Source: Tumebacillus sp. BK434 (GTDB lineage Bacteria > Bacillota > Bacilli > Tumebacillales > Tumebacillaceae). From it: a stretch of DNA of 64,000 nucleotides. The DNA lies in assembly GCF_004340785.1 (NCBI RefSeq), contig NZ_SLXS01000006.1, positions 1 through 64,000 on the forward strand, in the 5' to 3' direction. The notes under the pieces are model-generated. The model searched no databases, was not told the origin of the DNA, and saw only the letters and a list, made by a program, of their open reading frames with translations. Both the position numbers and the translations under genes were made by a program. Positions within the stretch are counted from its first letter, which is position 1, and each line of letters starts with the position of its first letter. Shown one piece after another: positions 90-3,548 of this stretch.

Positions 90-203
90 TAAGTATTCTT
101 TGACTCACACTCGCTATTCAGTTTTTGAGGAACACAGCGGTAGATCGCCTAAAATCAGCGACGTCCTGTCGCAACGGCGATCGACTGTACATCCTGTATG
201 TCT

Positions 204-278
204 GGAATCGTAGCTCAGAGGGAGAGCACCACCTTGACACGGTGGGGGTCGGAGGTTCGATTCCTCTCGATTCCACCA
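204..278 (+). tRNA. tRNA-Val (anticodon GAC), CCA encoded
   Basis: The acceptor strands GGAATCG (204-210) and CGATTCC (268-274) pair fully and are followed by A and an encoded CCA. The anticodon stem CCACC/GGTGG closes the loop TTGACAC, giving anticodon GAC for valine codons GUC/GUU. The T-arm contains GGTTCGATTCC. It lies 114 bp behind the 23S end and a terminator follows at once, so it is probably the last unit of the rRNA operon transcript. Confidence 0.95.
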
Positions 279-430: not shown

Positions 431-1663
431 GTGCGAACAATCGTCTTCATTGGAAGCAACAAGTCAGGATCCAGTCGGGAAGCGATACGGGCGGCCGAAG
501 GATTGGGATTTTTTACGGTGTTATTAATCGATCGGCGCTCGTTTGTCAATCAACGGCTGGAGTTTCCCGACGTCCATCGGATGATTCATTGTGACAGCTT
601 ATACGATCTGGAAGACTTGCAAAAAAAGATTGATATGCTAAAGGAACAAGGCAAAGTCATCGAAGCGATCGTTTCATTTCTGGAAGCCCATTCGCAAACG
701 GCTGCCGTGATGGCCGAGCGCAACGACCTGCATTATGTCTCTCAGGAAGCGATCTTGCGCATGTCCGATAAGATCGCCACCCGTGAAGCGCTATCAGACA
801 CCCCTTACTGTCCCTACTACACCGTCTATGATGGGTCGTGCAAGCTTGCCGATTTCATCGATGATCTTACCCCGCACTTGCCGCTCGTCGTCAAATCCCC
901 GCAATCGACAGGCTCCAAAGACGTGCTGAAAGCGAACACCTCAGACGAACTTCTTGTCCACCTGACGAAGCTCCGCGACAAATATCCGGAGAAGCCGGTG
1001 CTGGTTGAAGAATATCTGGACGGACCGCAATATCTGGTCGAAGTGCTTGTCGATGACCGCGGCATTCATCTGGTCGCCGTCATCGAGCAGGAGATCATGA
1101 AAAAGCGGCGTTTTATTGTGATCGGCTACATGGTGCTCGCTGAGATGCCGCGCTCCTTAGAAAGATCGCTCACTGAGGCCGTCTCTGAGATCGTGAAGCA
1201 GATCGGACTGGAAAAAGGCGCCTGCCATCTTGAACTGCGTCTCGTGCACGGCGAGTGGAAATTGATCGAAATCAACCCCCGCATCTCAGGTGGCGCGATG
1301 AATCGGATGATCGAAGTGGCGACCGGCATCAACCTGGTGCAAGAGACGATCCGCCTGATGGTCGGAGAGCGCCCGCGCTTAAAGCGGGAGCACAACCATT
1401 ACGTCTACACCCACTATCTGACTGTACGGGAGACCGGCTATCTCGAACGCGTCACCGGCAAAAAAAGGGCCGCTCGCCTCGACGGCGTGCGTGAGGTGTT
1501 CGTCAAGCCGCGCAAAGGGCAGAAGCTCTATGTACCGGAATCGATGGGGCACCGCTATGCCTATATCATCGCCGTCGGGGACAGCAAAGAAGCAGCCAAA
1601 GCAACGGCCAAACGCGCCGGAGATGAGATCAAGTTCTCGCTGACAAGGAAGTGGAGCGGATGA
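431..1663 (+). CDS. ATP-grasp domain carboxylate-amine ligase-like protein
   Basis: This 410-residue protein has an ATP-grasp fold: an N-terminal Rossmann-like pre-ATP domain (about 1-110), an ATP-binding segment around LVVKSPQSTGSKD (about 151-163), VLVEEYLDGPQ (about 184-194), and the Mg-binding LIEINPR motif with Glu280 and Asn282. The family couples a carboxylate to an amine or thiol nucleophile through an acyl-phosphate; the substrate here is not evident. The GTG start follows a GGGGAGG Shine-Dalgarno at 415-421. CATACAAT at 388-395 resembles a sporulation sigma-E -10, but I see no convincing -35. The stop overlaps the next start (ATGA), so translation is probably coupled to the YheC/D-type gene and a spore-related role is possible. 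Confidence 0.85.
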   Translation: MRTIVFIGSNKSGSSREAIRAAEGLGFFTVLLIDRRSFVNQRLEFPDVHRMIHCDSLYDLEDLQKKIDMLKEQGKVIEAIVSFLEAHSQTAAVMAERNDLHYVSQEAILRMSDKIATREALSDTPYCPYYTVYDGSCKLADFIDDLTPHLPLVVKSPQSTGSKDVLKANTSDELLVHLTKLRDKYPEKPVLVEEYLDGPQYLVEVLVDDRGIHLVAVIEQEIMKKRRFIVIGYMVLAEMPRSLERSLTEAVSEIVKQIGLEKGACHLELRLVHGEWKLIEINPRISGGAMNRMIEVATGINLVQETIRLMVGERPRLKREHNHYVYTHYLTVRETGYLERVTGKKRAARLDGVREVFVKPRKGQKLYVPESMGHRYAYIIAVGDSKEAAKATAKRAGDEIKFSLTRKWSG

Positions 1664-2685
1664 CACTGGTCGGATTTTTACACACGCGCAAGGACCCGCG
1701 CAAGATCTTAAAACTCTATGCCTTCGCTGCCGCAGCCAAAGCGGAAGGGGTCGAATTCTTCTACTTCACCGCCGGCCGCGTCAACTTGAACGAACGGACG
1801 GTCCGCGGACTCGTGCTGGAAAACGGCACCTGGGTGGAGCACAATTTTCCGTTACCCGATGTTGTGTACAACGACAGTTCGCCCAGCGGTCCGGGCGAGG
1901 ACATCATCGACGAGCTGCGCGAGATCATCCCCTTCACCTCCCGCTCGGTCGGCGACAAAATGACCGTCTACGAACGCATTCAGGATGGCAGGCGCTTCGA
2001 GCAGTACTTGATTCCGTCGCTGGAGGTGCGAGACCCGCGGGAGGTGCTGCGCTATCTGAACAAGCACGAAACGGTGATCTTCAAGCCGGTCTGGGGGCAC
2101 CAAGGCATCGGTGTGGTGCGCTTGGAGAAAAAAGGCGGCGATTATACGTGCCTGGAGAAGGGCGTATCCGTCACCTGCAACAAGCAGGAGCTCACACAGT
2201 TCCTGCAAGAGCGGCTTGATGAGGTCGTCCACCTCGTGCAGCCGTTTATCACCACAAAAACGCAGTCCGGCCATGCCTACGATTTTCGTCTGCACGTTCA
2301 AAAAAACGGCTCGGGCAACTGGGTGATCACCTCGATCTATCCCCGGGTCGCGCCGTCGGGAAGCATCATCGCAAACTTGAGCAGCGGCGGGTATGCGGCG
2401 ATCCTGCACTCGTTTTTAGAGCGTGAGTTTGCAGAGCAGGCGTACGACATTCAGCGCGACTTGGAGCAGTTTGCGCTGGGGATGGCGGAGCATATGGATG
2501 AGATCTACGAGGAGTCGTTTGACGAATTGGGCATCGACATCGGGCTCGATGAAAAACAAAAGATCTGGCTGTTCGAGGTCAACTGGAAGCCAGGCGTGCC
2601 GCCCGTGTTTTATCTGGAGCTCGATGTGGCGAAAAACTCCATCGGCTACGCAGCATACCTCGCGAGAAGGAAGGGACGAAAGTGA
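1660..2685 (+). CDS. YheC/YheD family ATP-grasp protein (spore coat-associated type)
   Basis: This 341-residue protein resembles the YheC/YheD family, whose B. subtilis members are associated with the forming spore. The N-terminal MTLVGFLHTRKDPRK and the pre-ATP region are followed by an ATP-grasp core, with VIFKPVWGHQGIGVVRL near residues 138-154 and a C-terminal metal-binding FEVNWKPG near 303-310. ATG at 1660 is preferred over the in-frame GTG at 1651 because AAGGAAG at 1645-1651 lies at proper spacing from the ATG. It overlaps the upstream stop by 4 bp and its own stop overlaps the GNAT start by 4 bp. The substrate of this family is not established. Confidence 0.85.
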   Translation: MTLVGFLHTRKDPRKILKLYAFAAAAKAEGVEFFYFTAGRVNLNERTVRGLVLENGTWVEHNFPLPDVVYNDSSPSGPGEDIIDELREIIPFTSRSVGDKMTVYERIQDGRRFEQYLIPSLEVRDPREVLRYLNKHETVIFKPVWGHQGIGVVRLEKKGGDYTCLEKGVSVTCNKQELTQFLQERLDEVVHLVQPFITTKTQSGHAYDFRLHVQKNGSGNWVITSIYPRVAPSGSIIANLSSGGYAAILHSFLEREFAEQAYDIQRDLEQFALGMAEHMDEIYEESFDELGIDIGLDEKQKIWLFEVNWKPGVPPVFYLELDVAKNSIGYAAYLARRKGRK

Positions 2686-3227
2686 AAAAACGTCAGCCCA
2701 AACCGGCCTCAAAATCCTTGCGAGCAACACCCGCCCAAAGCAAAAAGAAAACTGCTGCCCAGCCCCCAACCCAGTCCATGGCCCGCCTGCATTTTCGTCC
2801 GCGCACAGATGAAGACGACAGCTTCATCTCCAGCATCACCTTGCTCACCCTAAAAGACGTCTTCGAAGCGTCCACCAACCAGCCGCTCACCGAAGCGATC
2901 ATCCTGCAACTGGTCAACCAGACCGACACCTGTGTGATCATCGAACAGCGTGGCAAACCGATCGGCTACTACTGCTATGACAAAACGTCGGCCGACCGCA
3001 TCTACTGGGGATCGCTCGTCCTCGTGCCGTCCAAGCAGGCAAAGGGCCTTGGCAGAAAAGTCGTTGAGCATTTCGTCGCCGAAGCGAAAAAACAAGGCGT
3101 GCGCCGCATCGACGGCCATGTGCAGGTGAAAAATGAGGAAGCCTACCACTTCTGGATGAGCAACGGCTTCCAAGTCGCCGGCCGGGAGCAAAACGGCTCG
3201 GTGCCAATCCTGTTCCAAATCAACTAA
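2682..3227 (+). CDS. GNAT family N-acetyltransferase
   Basis: This 181-residue protein has a lysine- and proline-rich N-terminal extension (about 1-38), then a single GNAT domain. The acetyl-CoA pyrophosphate-binding segment is SKQAKGLGRKVVEHFV (about 119-134), and a C-terminal NEEAYHFWMSNGF segment typical of motif B follows. The GTG start overlaps the preceding stop (GTGA), which makes this the third member of a tightly coupled trio with two ATP-grasp proteins. It could acetylate a product of those ligases, but that is inference from context; the acceptor cannot be read from the sequence. Confidence 0.83.
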   Translation: MKKRQPKPASKSLRATPAQSKKKTAAQPPTQSMARLHFRPRTDEDDSFISSITLLTLKDVFEASTNQPLTEAIILQLVNQTDTCVIIEQRGKPIGYYCYDKTSADRIYWGSLVLVPSKQAKGLGRKVVEHFVAEAKKQGVRRIDGHVQVKNEEAYHFWMSNGFQVAGREQNGSVPILFQIN

Positions 3228-3322
3228 AAATGTCGGTTGGAAGAAAATAATGCAAGATACACTATTGTCCTTTTCGAAGCCATCCATTAAAATCTTCTAT
3301 AGATATAAGGGGGTGGCTTCAC

Positions 3323-3487
3323 ATGGCACAAATCGGCAACCCGAACCCGGTAACCGATAACACGGCGAAGCAAAAAGGTCTGCTGGACGTTGTTCTCGCA
3401 CCTTTGCTCGTTGTTGGCGTATCGATCGGCCTCATCGCGATCTTCGCGCAAAACGTTTCGCACGTATCGACGACTGTCGGTCATTAA
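3323..3487 (+). CDS. Small single-span membrane peptide, 54 aa, unknown function
   Basis: A short reading frame begins with ATG at 3323 behind the strong Shine-Dalgarno AAGGGGGTGG (3308-3317). It encodes a polar N-terminus (MAQIGNPNPVTDNTAKQKG), a hydrophobic helix (about residues 20-42, LLDVVLAPLLVVGVSIGLIA) and a short polar tail ending in VGH. A bidirectional terminator follows immediately. I do not recognise the family. Small one-span peptides of this kind are common among sporulation and envelope genes. Coding is supported by the ribosome-binding site, the coherent membrane pattern and the terminator. Confidence 0.6.
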   Translation: MAQIGNPNPVTDNTAKQKGLLDVVLAPLLVVGVSIGLIAIFAQNVSHVSTTVGH

Positions 3488-3490
3488 TTC

Positions 3491-3548
3491 AAAAATCCCT
3501 GGTGGCAGATTGACAGGAACGTGCCAATTTGCCGCCAGGGATTTTTTT
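3491..3548. terminator. Bidirectional terminator between the small peptide and the hydroxylase gene
   Basis: AAAAATCCCTGG (from 3491) pairs with CCAGGGATTTTTTT (to 3548) around a long loop. The A-rich and T-rich flanks let it serve both convergent genes. Confidence 0.85.

Follow-up and report, generated by a model that had tools for sequence, protein, structure and literature searches.

Known L-amino acid ligases (BL00235, PDB entry 3VOT; YwfE/BacD; RizA) act alone. The zinc carrier LysW ends in an invariant C-terminal tail; cyanophycin synthetase (CphA) has an ATP-grasp domain followed by a Mur ligase; in clusters for graspetides, a class of ribosomally synthesized and post-translationally modified peptides (RiPPs), an ATP-grasp ligase stands near a small gene. 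YheC and YheD of Bacillus subtilis are ATP-grasp proteins of the family PF14398; in the part of the literature available their genes are placed in the sigma-E regulon, and YheD is described there as coating the spore, with its function stated not to be established (PMC7911427). Here we consider two adjacent genes of Tumebacillus sp. BK434, one for a ligase akin to the L-amino acid ligases (LAL, protein 1), the other for a YheC/D-type ligase (YHE, protein 2). They are located at 431-2685 of the window, i.e. the whole analysed stretch of 64,000 nucleotides, which begins at base 1 of contig NZ_SLXS01000006.1.

We read the pair as a module of two amide ligases, found in endospore-forming Bacillota, that would build amide bonds for the spore surface, with the tail of a coat protein as acceptor in some lineages; we give this reading a probability of roughly 0.5. 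The reaction, the substrate, the timing and the location in the spore are the parts of it that we infer; the gene layout, the conservation of the pair, the fold class, the invariant residues, the association with MurF-like and CotZ-like genes and the constancy of the tail are observed. Both enzyme families are already known. A sequence-only reading of the same DNA had united the two ATP-grasp genes with a GNAT acetyltransferase gene and a small peptide gene; we found that the functional unit is the pair, not four genes.

Association of the two ATP-grasp genes

An alignment of LAL proteins was scanned against the genomes of 84,980 species; there were 192 confirmed relatives, and the best 80 loci (46-54% identity) were kept, chosen by LAL alone and blind to YHE. 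Hosts in this set include Tumebacillus, Bacillus, Neobacillus, Peribacillus, Lysinibacillus, Priestia, Domibacillus, Sporosarcina, Desulfoscipio, Sporotomaculum and others; we take the named hosts to be all Bacillota, most of them from spore-forming genera. YHE was present within the fetched locus in 76 of the 80 loci, at a distance of at most 200 bp in 63 and at most 700 bp in 72; after clustering of the LALs at a 70% identity threshold, YHE was present for 29 of the 31 clusters. Two of the four loci without YHE (L037 and L106) break off at or close to a contig border, and in L106 the MurF portion of a fused gene can still be seen; the other two, L049 and L057, lack YHE.

Arrangement of the pair in the 76 loci was tandem unfused (43), convergent fused (25), divergent (5), convergent unfused (2) or tandem fused (1). 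As orientation differs between clades, the link between LAL and YHE is not one frozen operon. In a tree of LAL (82 rows) the window groups with its Tumebacillus relatives (98/95), and the 40-row half of the tree that holds the window also contains every fused form.

The window's family was sampled by seven genomes, G000 (the window's own) to G006. The pair is adjacent in six of them, G000-G004 and G006 (in G006 LAL is readable at its end only); its contexts differ and no common third gene was seen. The LAL gene of the sister-genus genome G002 (L016 8001-9221) has an in-frame stop near its start, with the remainder intact; the gene may be a pseudogene or begin later, or the stop may be a sequencing error. 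The congener G005 is without the pair: no YHE was found at 1e-40, and its LAL relative is just 28% identical. At the same site G005 has the rRNA end, tRNA-Val, unrelated DNA (L020 8901-9990), and then the GNAT gene and the small gene. Such a site indicates that the pair can be gained or lost as a unit beside tRNA-Val, whose flank may be a preferred place of gene turnover.

Thus, the tie between the two ATP-grasp genes claimed by the sequence-only reading holds (76 of 80 loci), whereas its third member, the GNAT gene, drops out: joint conservation extends to the two genes and not to all three, and by that reading's own refuting condition the trio falls while the pair stands.

Families and folds of the two ligases

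LAL is an ATP-grasp protein with LAL_C2 (PF18603, 70.2 bits, cut-off 29.4) and matches PF13535 too. Its nearest PDB sequence is 3vot, L-amino acid ligase BL00235, and its predicted structure (predicted local distance difference test, pLDDT, 93.5) has as best Foldseek match 3vot_A (E 6.4e-31, template modelling score, TM, 0.83); the whole-protein fold is shared with the known L-amino acid ligases, at ~20% identity in structural alignment. Residues E268, E280, N282, R284 and G287 are invariant (58 of 58 rows of relatives); E268, E280, R284 and a Gly pair align with 3vot, N282 does not. The acidic residues and the Arg, kept in both, presumably serve the ATP/Mg site. Unlike the known ligases, LAL has another ATP-grasp ligase as its partner.

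YHE matches ATPgrasp_YheCD (PF14398, 214.8 bits, cut-off 26.8), the family that it has in common with YheC and YheD of B. subtilis; unlike these, it is linked to LAL. Residues K142, E306 and N308 are invariant (56 of 56 rows). Ranked by VIA-align Z, the folds nearest to its predicted structure (pLDDT 91.0) were RimK (22.2), ArgX/LysX (21.5) and glutathione synthetase (21.1), but identity to RimK and LysX/ArgX in structural alignment is 17-22%; Foldseek placed 7mgv_A, among the graspetide ligases, at rank 1. Other ATP-grasp ligases follow close behind RimK/LysX, and the fold alone is not decisive. The window genome has seven further YheC/D matches, 26-31% identical to YHE, which by its sequence appears to be a distinct branch of the family. 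Four YheC/D paralogues stand inside 7 kb of this genome (L168 4600-11400, contig C1). YheC/D-type ATP-grasp genes are also found on Staphylococcus epidermidis plasmids, 30-33% identical to YHE.

The families named by the sequence-only reading (ATP-grasp, YheC/D and GNAT) are therefore borne out by profile matches, with protein 1 now placed more exactly.

Judging from fold and conserved residues, both enzymes would use ATP to activate a carboxylate as acyl phosphate, to which an amine is then coupled. LAL would most likely form a bond between two amino acids or between one amino acid and an amine; YHE would most likely attach an amino acid, or the product of LAL, to a carboxylate at a protein or peptide terminus. 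What the pair makes would probably be used in outer spore layers. In related loci MurF-like ligases, either stand-alone or joined to the YheC/D domain, would attach more residues, and the likely acceptor there would be a CotZ-like coat protein whose C-terminal E[P/S]K tail is fixed.

A coat protein with a fixed C-terminus

A CotZ-like protein occurred in 27 of the 80 loci, spread over both deep halves of the LAL tree. Two members of this cluster were tested and both match PF10612; for one Lysinibacillus member no Pfam family was found at E 0.01, and it is named by similarity to the matching members. The 27 proteins vary widely (29-67% identity to the first row), yet all 27 have E[P/S]KW as the last four residues: 26 EPKW and one ESKW. 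Their alignment has seven gap-free invariant columns, three of which lie in the final four residues. EPK-type tails in loci without CotZ turned out to be chance antisense frames only.

A second survey covered 398 Bacilli genomes, 46 of them with a CotZ match, and 30 C-termini were read; it overlaps with the 80-locus survey (G004 is L034, G003 is L068, and the contigs of G215 and L064 are equally long), and the two are not independent. The search model includes the tail columns and so favours tail-bearing matches; 17 tail-less ones were found regardless. Near LAL (n = 13) the ends were EPKW (5), EPKK (4), EPK, ESKW, ESKT and VSKT (one each), i.e. EPK, EPKK or EPKW in 10 of 13 and an E[P/S]K-type end in 12 of 13; away from LAL none of the 17 proteins read ends in E[P/S]K plus at most two residues (15 of these were in LAL-negative genomes, two in the LAL-positive genomes G257 and G141).

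That so constant a C-terminus is encoded next to a ligase folded like the C-terminal-tail ligases suggests that the CotZ-like tail may be the acceptor. The situation resembles LysW in that some related loci encode a small protein whose C-terminal tail does not vary; it differs in that the putative acceptor is a coat protein and not a zinc carrier, and none was found in the window's genome. One could speculate that in a subset of spore formers LAL, YheC/D and MurF-like ligases form a non-ribosomal line which extends the CotZ-like C-terminus residue by residue, with the invariant E[P/S]K(W/K/T) end as loading site, and so decorates the spore surface by a post-translational tailing of a coat protein dedicated to it, the window's pair being a two-enzyme version with another acceptor. 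In this full form we consider the proposal unlikely.

The same loci bear on another explanation, in which the product of the pair is a small free molecule (a dipeptide or, with Mur ligases, a longer non-ribosomal peptide) that serves as an intracellular spore solute or a secreted compound. No protein would then be modified; LAL would make a dipeptide, to which YHE would add a third residue in the manner of glutathione synthetase. LAL is nearest, by both sequence and fold, to dipeptide-forming ligases, and YHE is near glutathione synthetase too (Z 21.1 versus 22.2 for RimK); a recognizable protein acceptor is missing from most of the 80 loci, and no third gene is shared around the pair in the window's family. 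On the other hand, a CotZ-like protein with a locus-specific invariant tail is recurrently linked to the pair, and no transporter or biosynthetic family recurs comparably (a membrane-transporter-like cluster was present in 12 loci only). We regard a free product as somewhat unlikely.

MurF-like ligases at related loci

In 26 of the 80 loci YHE and a MurF-like ligase form one fused protein; a MurF-like ligase in any form was present in 48 loci and none at the locus in 32. In Desulfoscipio (L066) YHE and the MurF-like ligase are separate neighbouring genes. These ligases score below the murF cut-off (e.g. 253.7 versus 288.6), and the usual Mur N-terminal domain was not matched in them at E 0.001. 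Among the Mur-less loci 29 genomes were searched for a MurF-like match elsewhere (two Tumebacillus loci and the second locus of one strain were left out of the 32): 10 had one above 300 bits and 17 passed 1e-75, some of the latter probably being ordinary murF. A MurF-like ligase as a fixed third partner in the window's family was rejected, as a match above 300 bits was seen in just one of seven genomes. NlpC/P60 proteins were present in 25 of the 80 loci, mainly in Lysinibacillus and near relatives.

The fused proteins have ATP-grasp followed by Mur_ligase_M/C, the domain order of cyanophycin synthetase. This order would agree with a cyanophycin-like polymer, a spore matrix or reserve, whose backbone is elongated by YHE and supplied with side chains by the MurF-like ligase, after priming by LAL with a dipeptide; in the part of the text available, cyanophycin has indeed been proposed as spore matrix material (PMC5532821, citing work on Clostridium perfringens). 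Unlike CphA, the fused relatives have no N-terminal cyanophycin domain, belong to another ATP-grasp branch and have a MurF-like, not CphA-like, Mur part. The fused relative L086, for example, is without PF18921 and reaches 58.6 bits with the cyanophycin synthetase model (cut-off 850), in the Mur part only. Moreover, the window's proteins are encoded by separate genes with no Mur domain, YHE being unfused, unlike CphA; there is no Mur ligase at the locus in the window, as in the 32 Mur-less loci, and the window's genome has a cyanophycin-synthetase-like gene of its own elsewhere. A polymer of this type is quite improbable.

The separate gene just mentioned (L167 2606-5374, contig C8) encodes PF18921, a RimK-type ATP-grasp domain and a Mur ligase; open frames of similar length with a Mur match are present in all seven family genomes. 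Matches to the MurF model in G000 comprise this gene and apparent ordinary cell-wall genes.

A probable connection with spores

The spore or envelope role suggested by the sequence-only reading is favoured by genomic context: by the CotZ-like proteins and MurF-like ligases of the loci above (27 and 48 of 80), and by the presence of the pair on two plasmids of Priestia megaterium QM B1551, pBM600 and pBM300. The host range and the published work on B. subtilis YheC/D also support it. A collagen-like protein is encoded near the pair on pBM300. Other proteins near the pair on the P. megaterium plasmids have no Pfam match (L163 3626-4159 and 12506-13255, L164 6727-7353); the first, small and with a cysteine-rich start, may be akin to exosporium surface proteins. 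P. megaterium strains without pBM600 have no exosporium, according to the part available of a paper (PMC4674009) which in that part mentions neither ATP-grasp nor YheC. SpoIVA is present in the window's genome and was found in 35 of 36 LAL-positive genomes versus 232 of 362 others (Fisher p 8e-6 by genome). A role of the pair in the spore surface is probable.

Several observations, however, speak against the module with a coat-protein acceptor as we propose it. First, the co-occurrence with SpoIVA loses significance when genomes are collapsed to genera (p 0.31); one LAL-positive genome, G353, has the pair and no SpoIVA match; and YheC/D relatives are carried by plasmids of S. epidermidis, a species of a non-sporulating genus. 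Second, upstream of LAL CATANNNTA occurs in 17 of 80 cases versus 75 of 471 for flanking genes, a sigma-K-like pair in 6 of 80 versus 45 of 471, and a sigma-E-like pair in 3 of 80 versus 4 of 471; by these counts, sigma-E and sigma-K motifs are not clearly enriched there. Third, 53 of the 80 loci are without a CotZ-like member, and a search of these for other tails of the EPKW type found none. Fourth, no CotZ-like match at 1e-6 and no protein with EPKW before the stop were found in any of the seven family genomes (in two of them pattern hits end in TGG, not in a stop), and the best matches to the MurF model in G000 look, by score and neighbours, like ordinary cell-wall murF. Since the window's family has neither the CotZ-like match nor the EPKW-stop protein, the tail model is not transferable to the window, and the pair there must either work on a different acceptor or yield a free product.

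A sporulation promoter upstream of LAL in the window found no clear support: CATACAATA at 388-396 resembles a sigma-E/K -10 box, but no -35 element was seen and the survey was not clearly positive.

Layout of the site, the GNAT gene and the small gene

The features of the site are collected in Table 1. The four-gene layout described by the sequence-only reading was reproduced in full: 4-bp overlaps at both junctions (ATGA at 1660-1663 between LAL and YHE, GTGA at 2682-2685 between YHE and GNAT) and 95 bp between the GNAT gene and the small gene. YHE has a second in-frame start, GTG at 1651, upstream of the ATG. A congener has YHE, GNAT and the small gene in the same order, with identities of 92%, 78% and 96% and with junctions that overlap by 4 bp there too; its protein 1 is mostly N, and the comparison covers proteins 2, 3 and the peptide. 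As these copies keep the order in the congener, the layout is not due to chance.

Table 1. Features at the left end of the window, in order of position
Feature	Position	Strand	Remarks
23S rRNA gene, 3' end			upstream of LAL
Bacillaceae-1 RNA	133-200		RF01690, 54.7 bits; between 23S rRNA end and tRNA-Val
tRNA-Val(GAC)	204..278	+	left border of the site
LAL gene (protein 1)	431..1663	+	GTG start, 410 aa
YHE gene (protein 2)	1660..2685	+	ATG at 1660, 341 aa
GNAT gene (protein 3)	2682..3227	+	GTG start, 181 aa
Sigma-A-like promoter of small gene	3265..3293	+	TTGTCC-17-TAAAAT; stretch conserved in three congeners
Small gene	3323..3487	+	ATG start, 54 aa
Intrinsic terminator after small gene	3491..3546	+	RNA fold -37.3 kcal/mol, z -8.0

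Protein 3 is a GNAT protein (PF00583, 48.6 bits, cut-off 20.7) with a basic N-terminal extension. It was found in all seven family genomes and adjoins the pair in the window's genus only; in the sister genus it stands away from the pair in all four species having the pair, and it was beside the pair in none of the 80 survey loci. The GNAT gene, whose translation is coupled to that of the pair, is therefore a local neighbour that does not belong to the conserved unit.

The small protein matches no Pfam or NCBIfam family above cut-off; it has one hydrophobic membrane span and N-terminal NPN motifs. It belongs to a family of ~50-residue proteins (besides the window's gene, L023 5592-5723, L165 1258-1386 and L166 1090-1224) which has its own promoter and terminator and is conserved in Tumebacillus-type genomes: identity is 91-96% in two congeners, and relatives with 32-40% identity are present in three of four sister-genus genomes, on contigs other than the pair's. 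The gene was not seen beside the pair in any of the 80 loci, and in G005 it stands together with GNAT without the ATP-grasp pair. It is best seen as an independent gene. Neither the trio nor the quartet is a unit, as ruled out by the family genomes, the 80 loci and the G005 site; what was reported as one cluster is two independent pieces that adjoin, the pair on the one side, GNAT with the small gene on the other.

The peptide-modification idea of the sequence-only reading, taken here as a graspetide-like pathway in which the ATP-grasp enzymes cross-link the 54-residue peptide as precursor and GNAT acetylates it, could draw on the adjoining genes and on the fold kinship of YHE with graspetide ligases (7mgv_A), but it is close to refuted by the peptide's own conserved promoter, strong terminator and membrane span, by its absence beside the 80 loci, its presence with GNAT but without the pair in G005 and the other contigs of its sister-genus relatives; unlike in graspetide clusters, no precursor is co-conserved with the window's pair.

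Significance

In the literature searched, which left most subscription papers outside, we found no report of the fixed pairing, of the MurF fusion or of the tail-bearing coat protein. Spore formers repeatedly carry ATP-grasp proteins of the YheC/D type. With a fixed partner, recurrent fusion to a MurF-like ligase and a tail-bearing candidate acceptor at hand, the question of YheD function becomes concretely testable. If the proposed module is real, spores would modify a coat protein with a ligase chain in the style of cell-wall synthesis; the pair suggests a little-studied route for building or decorating the spore surface.

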